Shown piece after piece: positions 7,060 to 30,778 of a stretch of 33,703 nucleotides of DNA. The DNA comes from Candidatus Altarchaeota archaeon (GTDB lineage Archaea > Altiarchaeota > Altiarchaeia > IMC4 > QMZM01), in the NCBI GenBank assembly GCA_030609775.1, contig JAUWTD010000009.1, positions 1 to 33,703 on the forward strand. Direction: 5' to 3'. The stretch's first letter is position 1. Each line of letters starts with the position of its first letter. The position numbers and the translations under genes were made by a program. Under the pieces are notes generated by a model. It had not been told where the DNA came from, ran no database searches, and worked only from the letters and a program-made list of their open reading frames with translations.

Positions 7060-8060
7060 CCCTCCCTCATATTCCGATATAATGGATCCACGTCATTTTC
7101 TGCAATCAAGGCATCCAAAACACCCCCTATCTTCAGCCTCCTCGTCAAATAGTCAGTTAACCTCATAGGATAGATCTGGGTGTGCAATATGTCATCTTCC
7201 ATAAGCCATAAGCCTGCGATAACTGCTAGATCCTGCCTGAAATCGTCGTATGAGAACTCCCACCTAACAACTAAAGGATTGCTTTTTCTTGAATGAATAT
7301 AATTCAGAGGTTTTGAAGGTAGCTTCAGGTGACATATATTTACGCCGTCTTTTTTCTCTGACACATACTCACAATCATCCAAAACCATATCCAATAAAAC
7401 AATATTCGGAACTTCAAAACCCATGCGCCTTGCCAGATCAGATGAATGAGAATCCTCAACCAAACCAATAACCTTCCCCATACCCATTAATTCCTTATGC
7501 AATCTAAGAGCCGCCTTATGTTCAGGGAATCCTGAAATCTTAGCTTCATTTTTCAACCTCGCAAGGTTAGTTTGGAGGCTTCCATCCACCAAAAAATAAT
7601 CCACACTCCCTGAATCCATACACCTATATGAATCCATTAAAGAGGCATACTCTCCCATAATCCTAAGAGAATTCATTCTAGAGTCTATATGCCTATACGG
7701 CAAAAAAACCCCGATATCAGGAAAAGAATTATACATTAGATTCACATACCCTATTTCCCCCTGCGCCAAAGGATCAGGATGCCTGCTTCCATCGAATTCA
7801 GAGTATAAGACAACCGGATGAGAACCCCAGATCGCATGATATCTAAGCTCTTTTTTGACTATTGCAGAGTCAACAGACAAAAAAGATATGTTTTTGGGTG
7901 TCTCTGGTTTCAGTTTTTGCACCCTAACATCCTCGGCAATAAATCTTTTGCGTAACAGCTCCCGATCAAACTCCTTTTTTGTTAATTCACCTGCAATATT
8001 TTTGAATTTATCCTCAAGAAAGGACGCATCAAACCTGAAGTCGGGGCTAAGAATCTCCAT
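7056..8060 (-). CDS. NurA-domain-like nuclease
   Basis: VDSAIVKKELRYH, YFLVDGSLQTNLARLK, IGLVEDSHSSDLARR are NurA-like Asp motifs. Confidence 0.65.
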   Translation of the reverse strand: MEILSPDFRFDASFLEDKFKNIAGELTKKEFDRELLRKRFIAEDVRVQKLKPETPKNISFLSVDSAIVKKELRYHAIWGSHPVVLYSEFDGSRHPDPLAQGEIGYVNLMYNSFPDIGVFLPYRHIDSRMNSLRIMGEYASLMDSYRCMDSGSVDYFLVDGSLQTNLARLKNEAKISGFPEHKAALRLHKELMGMGKVIGLVEDSHSSDLARRMGFEVPNIVLLDMVLDDCEYVSEKKDGVNICHLKLPSKPLNYIHSRKSNPLVVRWEFSYDDFRQDLAVIAGLWLMEDDILHTQIYPMRLTDYLTRRLKIGGVLDALIAENDVDPLYRNMREG

Positions 8061-11580: not shown

Positions 11581-12606
11581 ATGAAGATGATATCCATCAA
11601 CGGAGCACGTGGAGAAGGCGGCGGACAGATCCTGAGGACATGTACCGCATTAAGTGCAGTAACTGGTGAGAAATTCAGGATAGAGAATATAAGAGCCAAC
11701 AGACCAAATCCAGGTATAAGGCCGCAACACCTGCATGCGATAGATGCGGTAGCCAGACTCTGTGATGCGAAAGTGGACGGGCTTTATATTGGATCAAGTA
11801 AGCTGGAGTTTAATCCAGGAAACCTTCAAGGAGGCAGAATAAAGCTCAACATAGGCACGGCAGGATCAGTAACATTACTCCTGCAAGCCATAATGATCCC
11901 TGCAATGTTTACAAAAAAAGCAGTTAAACTAAGGATTACAGGAGGAACCGATGTAAAATGGAGCCCATCCATAGATTATCTAAGATACGTTACGCTGCCG
12001 GTTTTGAAGAGATTCGGTTACAAAGCAAATATCAGCCTTGATAGGAGAGGATATTATCCAAGAGGAGGCGGCATAGTTGAAGCAGAGATAGAGCCCATCA
12101 AAGGAATGGAAAAAATTAATCTAACCAAGCAGGGAAAACTTCTCAGGGTTAGAGGGATCTCACATGCCCACAGAAACCTGAAGAATGCAGAGGTCGCAAA
12201 GAGACAGATGGAATCCGCAAGATCTCTGTTATATAACAGGCTAACAGATACAGACATCAGAGAAAACATAAAAATCAAAGAAGAATACTCAGACACCTTA
12301 TGTTATGGTTCAGGGATCACATTATGGGTAAAAACAGAGAATACAATACTTGGATCAGACCATATCGGAGAAAAAGGGAAAAAATCAGAGGCTGTTGGAA
12401 AAGAGGCTGCAGAAGACATAATCAAAGAGATAGATTCAAATGCCGCATTAGACAAGTACATGGCAGACCAGATCATACCGTATCTTGCCTTATTGGGTGG
12501 GTGTGTAAGGGTAAGTGAGATAACACAGCATACGAAAACCAATGTGGATGTGGCAACTGAATTCGGCTTCAAGATACGCATTAAAGGAAACACTATTCAA
12601 GGCTAA
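11581..12606 (+). CDS. rtcA: RNA 3'-terminal phosphate cyclase
   Basis: GARGEGGGQILRTCTALSAVTG, RPNPGIRPQHLHAI, GTAGSVTLLLQ, GYYPRGGG, TDVKWSPS. Confidence 0.95.
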   Translation: MKMISINGARGEGGGQILRTCTALSAVTGEKFRIENIRANRPNPGIRPQHLHAIDAVARLCDAKVDGLYIGSSKLEFNPGNLQGGRIKLNIGTAGSVTLLLQAIMIPAMFTKKAVKLRITGGTDVKWSPSIDYLRYVTLPVLKRFGYKANISLDRRGYYPRGGGIVEAEIEPIKGMEKINLTKQGKLLRVRGISHAHRNLKNAEVAKRQMESARSLLYNRLTDTDIRENIKIKEEYSDTLCYGSGITLWVKTENTILGSDHIGEKGKKSEAVGKEAAEDIIKEIDSNAALDKYMADQIIPYLALLGGCVRVSEITQHTKTNVDVATEFGFKIRIKGNTIQG

Positions 12607-13406
12607 AGATGTTTTTTGATGACTCTTTTGATGTCATCGAATACAATATCAATAGGTTTTGATGCATTAATCTTCACTAAATCATCGAACTTAAGGTAGT
12701 TTTCTCTTACCCTGCCAAGGAACATATCATATTTACTGGTCTCAGATTCTAATGTTGTGGGCTTTTCAAATCTCTCAAATTTCAGATACTTTGATTTTTC
12801 AAGCTCGTATTCTTCCTCTGCATTCACAAGCTTCCGGTTCAACTCAAGAATCTCATCTGCAGCCTTCTTCTGGTTAAGTTTCCCAAACATTGCCCTCCGG
12901 TTGTTCAGGTAATGCTTCCTGAGATCTTCAACCTTTCTGCGAGACCTCTCAAGCAATTCCCTGAATTTTCTGTCTTTCTCCTGGATCTTAGGTATCGCAA
13001 CATTAGGGGATATATCAAGCAAAAACGCAATATCTGGCTTATTTTCAATCGCATAAGAATTTATGGTTTTAAGCCAGTTCCAGTCAACATACTGCGCCGC
13101 CTGATAGGCTATTGTAGAGTAATAATATCTCTCGGATATGACAATCTTCTTAGACTCTAACGCAGGTGCTATCTCGGTTTTAATATGTTCATACCGGTCA
13201 GATGTAAACAACAATGCAAGAGCACTCGAATCAATCTCTTTGCCACTAGAAAGTATCTCCCTGACACATGATCCGATGACATTCTTTGTTGGCTCAGTTG
13301 TTATTAGAACATCCGACCCTTCACTTATAAGCCAGTCATATAGAAGCCGAGCCTGCGTCGATTTACCGCATCCATCTATTCCCTCCAAGACAATAAACAT
13401 TATCAT
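12603..13406 (-). CDS. tmk: Thymidylate kinase with large LID-region insertion
   Basis: [53 protein letters not shown]; 267 aa rather than about 200. Confidence 0.85.
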
Positions 13407-15469: not shown

Positions 15470-16177
15470 ATGGTTGAACTAATAAAAACAGGAATTCCTG
15501 AACTGGATGAGATATTAAACGGCGGAATCCCAAAAGGGAACTCTGTGCTCCTGTCAGGGAGCTGTGGTACAGGCAAAACAATTCTTGCTGAACACTTCCT
15601 TTTTAACGGAGCAAAAAAGTATGATGAAACAGGGATCTATATATCTCTCTCAGAGCCAAGAGATAAGATAATATCAAACCTTGAACCGTTCAAGTTCTAT
15701 GATCCTAAACTTGTTGAGGATGATAAAGTAAAGATACTAGACATAACACAAGACGCTAGATTGATAAACCTCGAGCCTCTGACTGTGAACGGCATAATAA
15801 ACATGATAAGTTCCATTATAAGAGACAGCGAAGCTCAGAGAGTCTGCATTGACTCACTAACCGCAATCTGCAACAGTTTAGGTACTGAAAAAAATATCCG
15901 CGAATTCATATTCGAGCTTGGACTTCAATTAGGTTACCTTAACTGCACAACATTATTCATCTCAGAGATACCGCCAATGACGTTCCAATACTCTGTCTAC
16001 GGCATAGAAGAATTCATAGCAGACGGAGTAATCCTGCTAAGAGAACACGAGGATAAAGGAGAACTTATAAGAACCCTACAGGTAGTGAAGATGAGAGGAG
16101 TGCACCACTCCAGAAATAAACAGATACTACAGATCTCTGAGGAAGGTATAATCCTAAAACCAATGTTCGAGTTATAA
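15470..16177 (+). CDS. KaiC-like RecA-superfamily ATPase, intact Walker A
   Basis: TGIPELDEILNGGIPKGNSVLLSGSCGTGKTILAEHFLFNG; Walker B RVCIDSLTAI. Confidence 0.88.
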   Translation: MVELIKTGIPELDEILNGGIPKGNSVLLSGSCGTGKTILAEHFLFNGAKKYDETGIYISLSEPRDKIISNLEPFKFYDPKLVEDDKVKILDITQDARLINLEPLTVNGIINMISSIIRDSEAQRVCIDSLTAICNSLGTEKNIREFIFELGLQLGYLNCTTLFISEIPPMTFQYSVYGIEEFIADGVILLREHEDKGELIRTLQVVKMRGVHHSRNKQILQISEEGIILKPMFEL

Positions 16178-16236: not shown

Positions 16237-16956
16237 TTATTTGGGATCTATAACAAAACCATTTTTTGTCAGATTCATGTGTGCCGCCCTAACCGGAGAG
16301 GGAGTAGGTAGACTAAGTATCTTCAAATCAAGATTATCGTTTATCTCAATTGTCCCATCCATCATATAGCGCAAGGTCATCTCAACCTGGGGATCATGCA
16401 TCCCAGAACCCATAAGGAAGAATCCAAGCCCATTTGAGTCCCTAAGCTTAGGTAGTATCGTTCTCAGAAACCGATAGATTGTATTCGGGTCATTGTAAAT
16501 GAACAGAGTAGATAATGAATCAAAAACAAACTTGTAGTAGTCATTCATCGAAAAAAAATCTTTCTGAGCCTGAGACATTCCAATCGTTAAATCAGATAAT
16601 GCAATTGAGCCACCAATCCTCTTTATTGTATCAGTGCTTGTCACGTCTTTTCTCGCATTCAATGAGTAACCATCAACCCAACGTATAAGATTCTGCTGCT
16701 CCCCTCTTGCCAGAAACCATCCATAGGGCATGGCTCTGAGTTTCAGATCCTCAGGAGAATAATTCATAGTAACAATTAATCCAGGCTCCTTTTCAAGGAT
16801 TCCTCTATAGATATACTCAAGACAAAACAAATGCGCATCAATCACAGGAGGAACAATGAGCAGAATGCATGAACCACGAGGTAACCCACCTCCTGCAATC
16901 TCATCAAAACCTGCAATATTTGTTGGAATAATGCTTAATTGCTCTGCCATAATCAC
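16237..16956 (-). CDS. KaiC-like protein lacking a recognisable Walker A
   Basis: IAGFDEIAGGGLPRGSCILLIVPPVIDAHLFCLEYIYRG (no GKT/S); Walker-B-like KFVFDSLSTLF. Confidence 0.8.
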   Translation of the reverse strand: MIMAEQLSIIPTNIAGFDEIAGGGLPRGSCILLIVPPVIDAHLFCLEYIYRGILEKEPGLIVTMNYSPEDLKLRAMPYGWFLARGEQQNLIRWVDGYSLNARKDVTSTDTIKRIGGSIALSDLTIGMSQAQKDFFSMNDYYKFVFDSLSTLFIYNDPNTIYRFLRTILPKLRDSNGLGFFLMGSGMHDPQVEMTLRYMMDGTIEINDNLDLKILSLPTPSPVRAAHMNLTKNGFVIDPK

Positions 16957-17024: not shown

Positions 17025-17459
17025 TTAATCCATCAAAGCCTTTATCTCACCTGTAGCAGCCTTCAATTTAACAAGAACCAAACCAATGTTCGCACCAGCA
17101 CTAATAAGAGCAACAAGAAGCGTCGAAAATCCAGCGTCAACAACTACAAGAGTGAACTCATCGGTCTCAGTATAAACCCAATACACACAATCATCCCGTA
17201 ATTCCTTTATCGTCGTCTCCGCCGCACAAAACATTGCCGCAGACATCCCTGAAAAAGCCATCACATCAACATCCCTCGGAAGCCTAGTAGATATCGGAAG
17301 ACCATCTTTGGTAATGGCTGCTATCCCCTTCATACCCTTAACCGAAATCTCCAGATTACGTAAAAGATATCCGAACGCATCTTTTTTAGAAACAGATCTC
17401 GTATCACTGGAGTCCTCTATTATCCACTTATGTAAACTACTCTCTTGTTTATCTACCAT
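17025..17459 (-). CDS. Roadblock/LC7-domain protein
   Basis: GIAAITKDGLPISTRLPRDVDVMAFSGMSAAMFCAAETTIKEL...ANIGLVLVKL; paralog of 18566..18937. Confidence 0.88.
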   Translation of the reverse strand: MVDKQESSLHKWIIEDSSDTRSVSKKDAFGYLLRNLEISVKGMKGIAAITKDGLPISTRLPRDVDVMAFSGMSAAMFCAAETTIKELRDDCVYWVYTETDEFTLVVVDAGFSTLLVALISAGANIGLVLVKLKAATGEIKALMD

Positions 17460-17537: not shown

Positions 17538-18443
17538 TTATTTAATATATCCTCTTTGGGTTAATTTATCCGCCAAATCAATAATGACATCCTCACCTAG
17601 ATTAAGGCTACCTGCAATCTCTTTCAATGTTCGCTTACCATTCATAAGTCCCATCGCAGTTAAGGCATTTGGAAACCTGAAAAATCTTAACTTATCAGCG
17701 AAACTGATAGTTTTCACAACCAAAGGCTTAGTTTTGAGCAAATCCATTTTATCATCGGTTGACTCCACCGCCTCTCCACCCTCATCCACAGCATTAACTT
17801 CATCCACCTGACTTAGGGTTTTATCCACTCCAACAGATAACTCCTTTGAATCTATCTTCTCCCACTCAACCTCCAACCTATGCCACTCCTCATCACACGC
17901 CCCTAATTCACTCAACCAGTCTTCATCTTCCTTTTTATTCCGACCATCCCCCCCACCAACAGCCTCCGAGGGTTTCTGTTCTGCCTTATATGCCTTAGCT
18001 ACCTTAGCTTCATCAAGGCCGCCTTCAGATCCATCACCCACTCCATTATCTACCTTATCCTGGTTTCCTCCAGAACCTATACATATCTCCTTGAAACGGT
18101 CGAGAGACAATGCAGACTTAAACATTATTTTCTCATTCACATTGAAAGCAAGAGACATTTCAGCATCATTAAACAGGTAAATTTCCACATCACAGTTATT
18201 ATCCCCAAGAACTTCTTTTTTTAACTCCTCAAAGGCTGCCTCACCATAAATGCTTGAATCATTACCAAGAGAAACACAGAGAATACTCCCATCATCCACT
18301 AACAGATCACATTTATAGGATCTATCATCTGCTTTAATAAAAATACGGATAACACCCCTAAAACCATCAGGCAGCTTCCCATAAACTGATTCAAGATTAG
18401 CTATCTTCTCGGAGAGAATATGTTTCCCCGCAGGTAGATCCAT
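17538..18443 (-). CDS. DUF2226-like N-terminal domain, acidic linker with Trp motif, C-terminal winged-helix-like segment
   Basis: MDLPAGKHILSEKIANLESVYGKLPDGFRGVIRIFI...DLLVDDGSILCVSLG; linker EEWHRLEVEWEKID; end NGKRTLKEIAGSLNLGEDVIIDLADKLTQRGYIK. ATG at 18443 preferred over 18476. Confidence 0.7.
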   Translation of the reverse strand: MDLPAGKHILSEKIANLESVYGKLPDGFRGVIRIFIKADDRSYKCDLLVDDGSILCVSLGNDSSIYGEAAFEELKKEVLGDNNCDVEIYLFNDAEMSLAFNVNEKIMFKSALSLDRFKEICIGSGGNQDKVDNGVGDGSEGGLDEAKVAKAYKAEQKPSEAVGGGDGRNKKEDEDWLSELGACDEEWHRLEVEWEKIDSKELSVGVDKTLSQVDEVNAVDEGGEAVESTDDKMDLLKTKPLVVKTISFADKLRFFRFPNALTAMGLMNGKRTLKEIAGSLNLGEDVIIDLADKLTQRGYIK

Positions 18444-18454
18444 TTTAATGATAT

Positions 18455-18490
18455 ACAATTGTATTATAAAGAACAATTGAATTATAAAGA
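18455..18490. repeat. Two tandem 18-bp repeats upstream of the DUF2226-like gene
   Basis: acaattgtattataaaga / acaattgaattataaaga, 1 mismatch; each has CAATTG and, on the minus strand, tttataat. Confidence 0.85.
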
Positions 18491-18565: not shown

Positions 18566-18937
18566 TCATTTCATCAACTCCTTTGTTGCGTTCGCTACCT
18601 TTAGTATTTCTATAAGAACTAAACCCAGATTAGCTTCAGATCGCACTAAGGCAACCACCGCAGCACTCGGACCAGCATCCACAGCAACCAGTTTACAGTC
18701 CTCTGCTTCGGATATAACCCGTTTAACAGAACCCTTCTTTAATTCAGATACTGCAGTCTCAGCTGCACCATACATTGTCGCAGACATAGCAGCAAATGTC
18801 TCGGCATTAACATCTCTGGGTAAACGAGAAGCAACAAGTAACCCATCCCTAGTTGTTATAGCTGCACCATCTATATCCCCCACATTTTCAAGTTCTTTTA
18901 GTAGATCAGCAAGTTCCTCTTTTTTCGATTTTGGCAT
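18566..18937 (-). CDS. Roadblock/LC7-domain protein
   Basis: GAAITTRDGLLVASRLPRDVNAETFAAMSATMYGAAETAVSELKKG...ANLGLVLIEI. Confidence 0.92.
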   Translation of the reverse strand: MPKSKKEELADLLKELENVGDIDGAAITTRDGLLVASRLPRDVNAETFAAMSATMYGAAETAVSELKKGSVKRVISEAEDCKLVAVDAGPSAAVVALVRSEANLGLVLIEILKVANATKELMK

Positions 18938-18958: not shown

Positions 18959-20182
18959 TTAAACAATCCGGCTAAATAAAGCATCAAGAACCGCGTGCAC
19001 ATCCTCATCTTTTAATTTAGCAGGCTCATTCACCTTAACCTTGGATAAATCCTCCGCAGTCACTGGAACGATTGGCACAGCATCGGACACATGCATTTTT
19101 TCCCTGATTTTATCAATACTTAAAGCACCCTCGAGATTCGCTTTGTTTGCAACGATTACAACAGGCAAACCAATACTCTTAGACCTGATTAACATATCGT
19201 TCACCCTATGAAAACTCTGTTCGTTTGTTGAATCAACTACTGCGATAACCCCTAGGGATTCGCCGCCTAAAAGCTCGAGAATGGGATCAAATCTCTCCTG
19301 CCCCGGGGTTCCAAAGAGATCAACTGAAAAACCAGAGTAATCTACGTGACCATGATCCAATGCAACTGTTGTCCCCACCCGGTCAACTGAAACAGCTTTT
19401 GTCGAAGCAGAATGTACAAACGAGCTTTTCCCGGCATTATAGGCTCCAGTCACAAGAATCTTGGGAATATAAACTTTCACACCACCAGGCACAGATATCT
19501 TAAATGGAACAGATACACCCTCCTTTGATTTACCGTTCCATGAAACCTTTGAAACAATGAAAAACTCCCGAAGTATCACTTTCTCCTCTATCGCCTTTAG
19601 TTGGATGATTGCATCAGATATAAGCCGGGCCTTGTTAAGAACCTTAGTCTCATACGGCCATTCAGTGAACAAAAAAAAGCCTGTGGCATTTTTTTCCTTG
19701 AATATATCCTTCCACTTAATTAATTCATCTAAACAGTTTTCACCGCAGTGATCAATCAAGGTAGATAATGAATCACACACAACAAGAGTATGCCCCGACC
19801 CAGTAGCATCCAATGCATTTTTTAGGGCATCAGTTATCTGTGTTATATCCTTTGCATTCTTTACAGAAAACCTCTCCTCAGATTCGGCATTTATCAGACC
19901 ACTGTAGGCGTCAAGGAAAAAAAATTTACCCGCCTCCTTATATTTCTCAATACCCCAGCCATAGTGTCTAATCTCATCTTCAACAGTTAAACCCAGCTTT
20001 GACTGAGTTATATAGATACACGAATCCCCGGATTCAAGACGCTCCATAAGGGTCTGATATGCAAACGGGGCATTCTCTATCCCAGGATAGGCCCAGAGAA
20101 CAGTAAGTGTTGAAGGTTTTAATCCACCATCCAAAAATTCATCAAGACGAGGGATACTAGTAGCATATGTGTTCATTTTCAA
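18959..20182 (-). CDS. Walker-A-less KaiC-like domain fused to C-terminal Ras/MglA/CvnD-like small GTPase
   Basis: N-term TSIPRLDEFLDGGLKPSTLTVLWAYPGIENAPF, Walker-B-like LVVCDSLSTL; C-term G1 GAYNAGKSS, G3 DLFGTPGQERF, G4 NKAN. Confidence 0.88.
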   Translation of the reverse strand: MKMNTYATSIPRLDEFLDGGLKPSTLTVLWAYPGIENAPFAYQTLMERLESGDSCIYITQSKLGLTVEDEIRHYGWGIEKYKEAGKFFFLDAYSGLINAESEERFSVKNAKDITQITDALKNALDATGSGHTLVVCDSLSTLIDHCGENCLDELIKWKDIFKEKNATGFFLFTEWPYETKVLNKARLISDAIIQLKAIEEKVILREFFIVSKVSWNGKSKEGVSVPFKISVPGGVKVYIPKILVTGAYNAGKSSFVHSASTKAVSVDRVGTTVALDHGHVDYSGFSVDLFGTPGQERFDPILELLGGESLGVIAVVDSTNEQSFHRVNDMLIRSKSIGLPVVIVANKANLEGALSIDKIREKMHVSDAVPIVPVTAEDLSKVKVNEPAKLKDEDVHAVLDALFSRIV

Positions 20183-22741: not shown

Positions 22742-22856
22742 TTAAGGTAACATTTATATACCAAAGTACAGATATATAACATAATCATAATAGATATTCA
22801 ACATAACCATAAATTTTTGATACAATCTATGAATTTGGGTGTTAAATATAAAAAAA

Positions 22857-24650
22857 ATGAAGCCCACCCTCCAAATTACTGCCAACCTTGAGAACCTCAA
22901 TGATGCAATCAAGATGGTGAAGAATGCAGTTTCCACAAACAGTGTAGGCTGGATAAGCATAGGGAAAAAACTCATAAAGAGCAATGGACTTCACGCCGTT
23001 AAAGAATTCAAAAAAAGATTCCCAGAAAAACACATCATAGTAGACATAAGCATTCTCGGACGCTCCCGCACACTGACGTCAGTAACAGACGCAGGCACAG
23101 ATATTCTGATGATACCTGACTACACATCAGGAGACATAACACAAAAATTCATTGAGGAATTCAAGAAAAACGGAATTGAAACAATGGTCGACCTAACAAA
23201 AGAATCCTCTCGGATAGATATCCCGAAAAAATTAGAGAAAATGGGTATCGACTACATAATAGTCAGTTTAGACGACCTTGAGGCTGTTTCAGAATCCATC
23301 ACCATACCCATAGCAGTTAAAATAGATCCAAATCGAGAAGATGTTTCCGATGCAGTTAACCTCGGAGCACAAATCATAGTACTTGACGAATCAATAACCA
23401 AAAAAGAAAACATAAAAGAGATTATTTATGATGTAAATAAAACACTTGCAGAAATACCCACACCAGAAACTGAACCAGGAACACATGAAGAACGCCAAAA
23501 CATACACAAAAACATACACACATACAAAGGATACATGGAAGGGAAACCATTAGAAGAAATGGAAAAAAATCCAACAGAATACGAAACCACAAGAGAAAAG
23601 AAAACCCAAAACATAAAACAAGAGCTAGATGAAATAAGAAATGAATGGAATAAGATAGAAAATGAATGGATTAGATTAGACGAAAATAAACAAGAGCTAG
23701 ATGAAAAGATACAAAAAATTGATTCAGAGTGGAAGAGAATAGAAAACCTAAAAGAGGAAGGATACCTGATTTCAGAGAATAATACAACAAAAAATGAAGA
23801 AAGTAGAGAATCAGAGGAAAATAGGTTAAGTGGAATAGAATTAAATGAGGTTGAAAAAGAATGGGGGGATATAGAAAACATGTGGAACAGAATAAACAAA
23901 GAAAAACAAGAAGCGGAGACAAAGAAAATAGAGATTGAAGAAGAATGGAAGAGATTGGCTGCAATGAGAGAAAAAATAGAACAAGAACAAGAAACAATAA
24001 ACAAACAAAGAGATGAAATAGAACAAGAACAAGAAACAATAAACAAACAAAGAGATGAGATGGATGCATACAGAATTTCAGATCTGGTTAAGCGTGTATC
24101 AGACATCAACAAGATAGAGATTAGTGAGGTACACAGAAAGGATAAAGTAGATAAGCTCACAGAATTAGAAAACGGCCTAAATAAAAAACAGATAGAGATC
24201 AAAGAAACTAAAGATGGATTAAATGCCAAAGAAGAAAAGATAAATAAAGAAATTAAGATGCTCGAAGAGGAATGGCATAAAATCGATGACATAAAAAGAA
24301 GATGGGGTGAAGAAGAAGACATAAAAAGAAGCGCAAATGGGTCTCTTGCATACCTCCAGAAACTCAAAAGAGAACATGAAAAACCAAAAACAAAGACAAA
24401 AGAAAAAGACAATCTAACAGACGATAAGACAAAAGACATGATCAATAGACTGATAGATCTTGTAGATGAAAGAGGAGAAATCAAACTCAAAGACGCTGCA
24501 AAAGAACTGCAGATTCAAGAATATCTTGCAAGAAGATGGACTAACCTCCTTGAAAAAAGATATATAATCGAAGTCAAAACACCCCTTGTCGGAGACATCA
24601 TACTTAAAAGAGGTGCAAACATAAACAAAATAAGCAAGTCACGGCAATAA
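22857..24650 (+). CDS. Degenerate HPS/OMPDC-like barrel + long coiled coil + C-terminal winged helix
   Basis: LQITANLENLNDAIKMVKNAV...GKKLIKSNGLHAVKEFKKRFPEKHIIVDISILGRS; Glu/Lys/Trp-rich coil; LVDERGEIKLKDAAKELQIQEYLARRWTNLLEKRYIIEVKTP. ATG at 22857 preferred over GTG at 22839. Confidence 0.78.
   Translation: MKPTLQITANLENLNDAIKMVKNAVSTNSVGWISIGKKLIKSNGLHAVKEFKKRFPEKHIIVDISILGRSRTLTSVTDAGTDILMIPDYTSGDITQKFIEEFKKNGIETMVDLTKESSRIDIPKKLEKMGIDYIIVSLDDLEAVSESITIPIAVKIDPNREDVSDAVNLGAQIIVLDESITKKENIKEIIYDVNKTLAEIPTPETEPGTHEERQNIHKNIHTYKGYMEGKPLEEMEKNPTEYETTREKKTQNIKQELDEIRNEWNKIENEWIRLDENKQELDEKIQKIDSEWKRIENLKEEGYLISENNTTKNEESRESEENRLSGIELNEVEKEWGDIENMWNRINKEKQEAETKKIEIEEEWKRLAAMREKIEQEQETINKQRDEIEQEQETINKQRDEMDAYRISDLVKRVSDINKIEISEVHRKDKVDKLTELENGLNKKQIEIKETKDGLNAKEEKINKEIKMLEEEWHKIDDIKRRWGEEEDIKRSANGSLAYLQKLKREHEKPKTKTKEKDNLTDDKTKDMINRLIDLVDERGEIKLKDAAKELQIQEYLARRWTNLLEKRYIIEVKTPLVGDIILKRGANINKISKSRQ
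23976..24059 (+). repeat. Two tandem 42-bp in-frame repeats encoding IEQEQETINKQRDE
   Basis: Units 23976-24017 and 24018-24059, essentially identical. Confidence 0.9.
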
Positions 24651-29386: not shown

Positions 29387-30778
29387 TTATCTGAAATCAC
29401 CCTCCTTAAATGCAACAACCTGATACTTATAAATCCTAGCCTCCGGTTCCCTCCAGCAATCTCCGGATAGACCTGCCTTCATACATAGACTCGACAGAAA
29501 CTCCTCTTTTCCAGGAAGCGTCTCCCATACCTGAGGAAGATAGGTTGCACTCCGGCCACCACATTCGAGTATTATGCCATCAGATCCTGGCCGGATTTTC
29601 TCAAGATACGCTTCAGGCGAATCTGCAACAACTAACTCAGGAACAGTTAAAACAGAAACCTCAATTTCTATATCAGCTAGTTCACTTACATCAACTGGCT
29701 TAAAACGGGGATCATGGAATGCCGCATTTATAGCATTATCCCTAACATCAATATAAAGAGGCTGCATGCCTTCAAGATGACCTATACAACCCCTAAGCTG
29801 CCCGTTTTTTTCAAGTGTTACGAAAACGCCTTTATTCTCCTTTAACATAGGATCATTTGTCTGAGGCTCAAGTCGTTTCCCTTCCCGCACATAAAGTTTG
29901 ATGGCATCTCTTGCCAGCTTCAAAAGATACCTTCCCTGATCAGAGCTCAACGCCTCCCTTTTGTTAGCTTCATAGAATGCAAATGCAGCATAACCTACTA
30001 CACCGGAGGTGTCACCAGTATCGCCAATAACATCACCTGAATTCATATACTTTAGAAGCCGGTTAAACCAATTCAGTTTCTGAGCAATCTTCATTGTCAC
30101 AAGAACAGGGAAATAACCACACATCTCACACCCTGCAGCCTGCTCTATATTTAAAGACAATATGGAATCAATACACTGGTTATCAAGTGAAACAGCCTCA
30201 TTATAAGGATGAAAATGCGAAAGATCAGTGCTTGCAACAAGCAGGGTGCTTTCATCCATATGCTGTATGATAAGATCAGAGAATTCATCAATATCAGACC
30301 TAGACAATTCCCCAACAAGTAGGGGAACAACCTCAAAATCAGTTAACATATACTGAAGAAAAGGTATTTCTATTTCGGCTGCATGCTCTTTTAAATGAGC
30401 TTCAGATACATTAGAAACCAAAGAAGAGCTCTTTCTTATTTTCTCTGCCACACAAGAAACCTTAACCTCACCTAAAGGAGTCGCATAATGAGTATGATTA
30501 GAAACCGACACACCCTTAAGAGGATACTGATGCGAAGGCGCAAGGATTATAACGGTTTTATAGATTCCACCTTCAAGCTGCCTGAAAGCATTCGCTGCAA
30601 CCTCGCCCGAGTAGGCATACCCTGCATGAGGCGCAATCAACGCCTTCACCTCACCAGATTCTTGCTTTTCTGTTTTAGCGAAAAAAGCTTCAAGCTGCTG
30701 CAAAAGAGCATCCGCTGAACCAGGATACCAGCTACCAGCCACAACAGACTTACGCACATATTTTTTTATTGATACCAT
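29387..30778 (-). CDS. MEMO1-AMMECR1 fusion protein
   Basis: VVAGSWYPGSADAL, LIAPHAGYAYSGEVAA, LAPSHQYP, EHAAEIEIPFLQ; then GVFVTLEKNGQLRGCIGHLEG, AFHDPRFKPV. Confidence 0.93.
   Translation of the reverse strand: MVSIKKYVRKSVVAGSWYPGSADALLQQLEAFFAKTEKQESGEVKALIAPHAGYAYSGEVAANAFRQLEGGIYKTVIILAPSHQYPLKGVSVSNHTHYATPLGEVKVSCVAEKIRKSSSLVSNVSEAHLKEHAAEIEIPFLQYMLTDFEVVPLLVGELSRSDIDEFSDLIIQHMDESTLLVASTDLSHFHPYNEAVSLDNQCIDSILSLNIEQAAGCEMCGYFPVLVTMKIAQKLNWFNRLLKYMNSGDVIGDTGDTSGVVGYAAFAFYEANKREALSSDQGRYLLKLARDAIKLYVREGKRLEPQTNDPMLKENKGVFVTLEKNGQLRGCIGHLEGMQPLYIDVRDNAINAAFHDPRFKPVDVSELADIEIEVSVLTVPELVVADSPEAYLEKIRPGSDGIILECGGRSATYLPQVWETLPGKEEFLSSLCMKAGLSGDCWREPEARIYKYQVVAFKEGDFR

Follow-up and report, generated by a model that had tools for sequence, protein, structure and literature searches.

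Results

The window, by which we mean the whole analyzed stretch of 33,703 nucleotides from an Altiarchaeota metagenome-assembled genome, contains an open reading frame at 18959–20182 on the minus strand, which has 407 codons when read from a TTG at 20182. An ATG at 20176, two codons inside, is more likely to be the start than the called TTG, because its K-M start context is common to close orthologs. The predicted product joins a degenerate KaiC-like domain to a small GTPase domain, with the following features.

18959–20176, minus strand: coding sequence of the pseudo-KaiC/small GTPase fusion, 405 aa from ATG 20176 (407 aa from TTG 20182)
20063–20095, minus strand: degenerate Walker A of the KaiC-like domain, WAYPGIENAPF; GK[ST] is found here in 0/50 family members
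19757–19777, minus strand: Walker-B-like CDSLSTL
19421–19447, minus strand: G1 P-loop GAYNAGKSS; Gly251 and Lys252 are invariant in the family
19355–19375, minus strand: G2 region GTTVALD; Thr272 is invariant in the family
19289–19321, minus strand: G3 DLFGTPGQERF
19136–19147, minus strand: G4 NKAN; Asn349 has codon AAT, where most relatives have GAY for Asp
19052–19060, minus strand: G5 TAE, with Glu at a position that is often acidic in SpoIVA (PMC7952092)
19013–19051 (approximate limits), minus strand: insertion of about 13 residues directly after G5, present in 17/50 members

The Pfam scan places KaiC (PF06745) on residues 8–239 (1.4e-20) and Arf/Ras on residues 241–400 (about 3e-9). An AlphaFold2 model of the fusion (mean pLDDT 89.5) is KaiC-like in the N half and Arf-like in the C half; in the PDB the full model comes closest to 2dr3, the archaeal KaiC-like ATPase PH0284 (TM 0.85–0.89 by target length), and the GTPase domain alone matches Arf/Arl proteins. 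Pfam, motif coordinates and fold model thus bear out the pseudo-KaiC and GTPase architecture that an earlier note had proposed for this protein. Compared with KaiC-family ATPases, the fusion has the RecA/KaiC fold without a functional Walker A. Compared with the Ras superfamily and MglA, it has the P-loop GxxxxGK[ST], GTPGQ in G3 and Thr-Thr at G2, while G4 reads NKAN instead of [NT]KxD. The same note's reading of NKAN in place of NKxD at G4 holds, as the register agrees with ANKQDL of Arl3 in the alignment.

Family members and conservation of the dead KaiC half

Fifty full-length archaeal sequences were aligned. The window's own family has a full-length copy in 11 genomes, the ten others being 61–82% identical to the window protein; the closest comes from the same genus, with 82% identity overall and NKSN at G4. 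The nearest named records (71–78% identity) are Altiarchaeota metagenome assemblies, the search of named records having given just three loci, all from Altiarchaeota. Other archaeal phyla also contain members, and the phylum of genome G030 contributes a large group. In the genomes carrying it, the fusion is the sole Ras-type GTPase detected. Because none of the 50 members has GK[ST] in Walker A, the inactivation of the KaiC half goes far back in the family's history. No prior description of a pseudo-KaiC/Ras-type GTPase fusion was found in the literature searched, which did not cover the main 2017 KaiC paper, so an earlier mention is possible.

A conserved gene module with roadblock proteins

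The fusion gene lies among roadblock and KaiC-like genes.

18566–18937, minus strand: Roadblock/LC7 protein (MglB-like), a predicted regulator, 21 nt downstream of the fusion (PF03259, 1e-14)
17538–18476, minus strand: DUF2226-like protein in the same gene run (PF09987, 1.4e-5), kept in several family genomes
17025–17459, minus strand: second Roadblock/LC7 protein (PF03259, 5e-7)
16237–16956, minus strand: second KaiC-like protein with degenerate Walker A IVPPVIDAHLF; methanogen-type counterparts are intact (GPPKVGKS)
15470–16177, plus strand: KaiC-like ATPase with intact Walker A GSCGTGKT (PF06745, 3e-60)

Of the 33 loci whose flanks could be read, 32 have a roadblock gene adjoining the fusion, across archaeal phyla; in the exception, G105, the fusion sits at a contig end. 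Extra KaiC-like genes also adjoin it in many genomes, with the P-loop intact in the G030-phylum group and degenerate in the window. Within the window's family, Ras-type GTPase and roadblock proteins are both present in 11 of 13 genomes and both absent from two. Such co-presence and co-absence speaks for a GTPase and a roadblock protein that work together, like MglA and MglB (PMC4316618). The two genomes lacking both, G004 and G010, belong to one genus and have neither Ras-type GTPases nor any roadblock protein, an apparent co-loss that is probably one event in one genus, seen in draft genomes. G010 keeps the KaiC half without the GTPase domain (L102, G010:C74, 1093–1836).

Several other genes were noted in passing. 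At L094 (6435–7898), one stop codon (7584–7586) interrupts an O-phosphoseryl-tRNA synthetase-like gene, through either recoding or an assembly error. A thymidylate kinase (window 12603–13406, minus strand) has 267 aa, over the usual length, and its C-terminal half contains a charged stretch that resembles a coiled coil. Memo and AMMECR1 domains are fused in one protein at window 29387–30778 (minus strand). At window 22839–24650 (plus strand), a 603-aa charged coiled-coil protein carries the short tandem repeat EQEQETINKQRDEI and has no Pfam match; its relatives lie near SepRS in sister genomes.

Recurrent replacement of the G4 Asp by Asn

In the alignment, 39 of the 50 sequences end G4 with Asp and 11 with Asn, no other residue occurring there, and the codons are GAY versus AAY in every case. 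NKAN or NKSN is carried by the window protein, its genus neighbor, L007, L011 and L072, and a separate clade of six sequences has NFQN. A shifted G4 (NKED) was considered possible for the NFQN clade, but the ungapped alignment puts NFQN at G4.

The source of the window is a 74%-complete metagenome assembly, in which NKAN could have arisen as a sequencing or assembly error. This account is rejected, with a practically negligible chance of being right, as Asn occurs in independent genomes and different codon contexts, with NKSN in the same-genus relative and NKxN or NFQN in three other lineages.

With the G4 columns left out of tree building, the tree shows five D/N changes (five in 917 and four in 82 of 1000 bootstrap trees). 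The AU test rejects one ancestral D-to-N change behind all four Altiarchaeota Asn sequences (p = 4e-6). It does not reject a change shared by L007 and L011 (p = 0.33), so the count is four to five. Asn at G4 thus appears to have been gained four to five separate times; the D-to-N direction is clear for L072, whose genus is otherwise NKAD (L115–L117), and likely for the window's genus, and is assigned for these only.

In the same alignment, 36 of 173 inferred changes from Asp (21%) go to Asn. Finding Asn in all four to five replacements would have a chance of about 0.002–0.0004 in this post hoc test. On the other hand, since D-to-N is such an easy substitution, drift that was tolerated may account for some of the recurrence. 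The earlier note had named NKxD in orthologs as evidence against its reading. The ortholog alignment at G4 does give Asp in most members, but the Asn recurs, and nothing else replaces the Asp.

An insertion after G5 and the base pocket

The insertion, typically AEDLSKxxxNEPxKLK, is present in all NKxN members. The third place of G4 is Ala, Ser or Asn in the insertion members; NKQD is found in 26 of 27 members that lack the insertion and keep the G4 Lys. Because all NKxN cases fall in the insertion lineages, the base pocket is, as far as the alignment indicates, remodeled there. In L072, as in the window protein, the G4 Asn goes together with a Glu in G5.

The placement of the four NKxN changes, all on insertion lineages that make up 35% of the tree length (P about 0.016, post hoc), would also suit an ordinary GTP switch, in which the insertion or the roadblock partner supplies or stabilizes base contacts and GTP is bound specifically, if somewhat more weakly. 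Asp and Asn proteins are alike in gene neighborhood and constraint (below), as this account would have it. However, the Asn proteins L007 and L011 lack the insertion's best conserved acids (AED), and across the Asn lineages no alignment column shows a consistent gain of an acid. Furthermore, the same replacement in Ffh (D251N) lowers GTP affinity about 200-fold, while raising XTP affinity about 100-fold (PMC517823). We regard the ordinary switch as a serious but still unlikely alternative. The insertion Glu as a general substitute for the G4 Asp is ruled out by its absence in L007 and L011.

Constraint on the Asn proteins

G-domain dN/dS is 0.03–0.04 in the two computable Asn pairs (dS being saturated for the closest Asn pair), compared with 0.02–0.08 in Asp pairs, so that the Asn proteins appear to be under strong purifying selection.

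Elsewhere in the family, the Mg-coordinating G3 Asp is replaced by Asn in L016, L059 and L060, and G3 of L074 reads GLPGLERF, without the catalytic Gln. Such changes, the loss of the domain in G010, and the deadness of the fused KaiC domain itself would be in line with a pseudo-GTPase, that is, Asn lineages losing nucleotide control with the domain kept as a binding surface. But in all NKxN members the G1, G2 and G3 motifs are intact (P-loop Lys, G2 Thr and GTPGQ unchanged), dN/dS is low, and the Asp is replaced by Asn alone, never by a random residue, which makes decay of the switch quite improbable.

Discussion

Nucleotide specificity

In the textbook view, Asn for Asp at G4 confers XTP preference (PMC517823, PMC7952092), and the protein could on that basis be a genuine switch for xanthine or inosine nucleotides, one that reports, say, purine damage or salvage. 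However, a Ham1-type XTP/ITP pyrophosphatase is encoded in all four family genomes with Asn, that of the window included, so XTP is expected to be scarce and is unlikely to be the natural ligand; nor did purine-salvage genes turn up next to the module in the window and family loci. We therefore consider such a switch very improbable. The earlier note's proposal of altered or relaxed specificity survives as the best inference, given the Ffh precedent, while XTP as the natural ligand is disfavored. The roadblock neighbor, the insertion behind G5 and the wide spread of the family come in addition to what the note described.

We favor, at a probability of about 45%, a roadblock-regulated switch of the Ras/Arf/MglA type carried by a dead KaiC domain, whose guanine selectivity would be weakened such that it accepts GTP, and probably ATP or other purine NTPs as well. 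In this scheme, the nucleotide switch would operate within an archaeal signaling module. Asn at G4, together with the remodeled G5 loop, would lower both selectivity and affinity for guanine, so that the GTPase could load and release nucleotide quickly, taking GTP and other abundant purine NTPs. The neighboring MglB-like roadblock protein would set the on/off balance, and the pseudo-KaiC half could act as a scaffold for assembly with KaiC partners.

Perhaps the fusion GTPase uses ATP. There are precedents by analogy, as Era came to prefer ATP once its G4 was altered and its G5 read SAE (PMC7952092), to be compared with NKAN and TAE in the window protein, and YchF, with NMSE at G4, prefers ATP with a hydrophobic residue in place of Lys (PMC8959515). 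A bolder version holds that a Ras-type lineage has repeatedly left guanine specificity and runs on ATP or mixed purines, under roadblock control and on a pseudo-KaiC scaffold, linking a KaiC hub to energy state; by analogy with these proteins it can be conceived, but it is rather unlikely. Most relatives have NKQD or NKAD and are probably ordinary GTPases, and the function of the module thus does not require altered specificity.

To our knowledge, nearly all Ras-type switches select guanine through the Asp of NKxD, and Asn in its place is known mainly as a laboratory tool. Here a natural and recurrent change affects a near-obligatory residue in a conserved, uncharacterized archaeal signaling module, which joins two archaeal signaling themes, KaiC-like hubs and roadblock/MglA-type switches. 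Because the natural D-to-N change is repeated, matched Asp and Asn orthologs are available, making relaxed base selectivity of a Ras-type switch directly testable.

Comparison with known systems

Among the closest known systems are MglA Groups 2–5, especially the archaeal Group 4 (PMC4316618), with which the fusion shares GTPGQ in G3 and a Thr, not an Arg, next to the G2 Thr. As with MglA/MglB, it lies next to a roadblock gene, and an Asp-Gly pair is present in the window's own roadblock protein and many others. It differs from these groups in its fusion to pseudo-KaiC, its length of about 400 aa, the G4 Asn and the post-G5 insertion. The MglA survey classified proteins of 240 aa or less (PMC4316618), so the 405–407-aa fusion would have been outside it.

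With iKaiC, the inactivated KaiC-like domains of archaeal signaling, as outlined in PMC5847659 (citing Makarova et al. 2017), the fusion shares a KaiC fold, a lost Walker A and a place in a multidomain signaling protein; it differs in that its output is a Ras-type GTPase.

Natural departure from NKxD is shared with SpoIVA and YchF/OLA1 (PMC7952092, PMC8959515), which are different families with different domain architecture. The resemblance to SpoIVA is one of motifs, NKAN plus TAE with its G5 Glu (PMC7952092), as the Pfam scan gave no SpoIVA family match. As for YchF/OLA1, the fusion has NKAN and not NxxE, and no YchF C-terminal domain in the Pfam scan; the NFQN clade, like YchF with NMSE (PMC8959515), has a hydrophobic residue for the G4 Lys. 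The window protein retains this Lys, unlike YchF/OLA1 and also unlike SpoIVA and the Era variant, in both of which it was changed as well.

Finally, the G4 Asp-to-Asn replacement is identical to that of the engineered XTP-specific GTPases Ffh D251N, FtsY D449N, Ras D119N and EF-Tu D138N. Those are laboratory mutants, whereas the Asn of the fusion is natural and recurrent.
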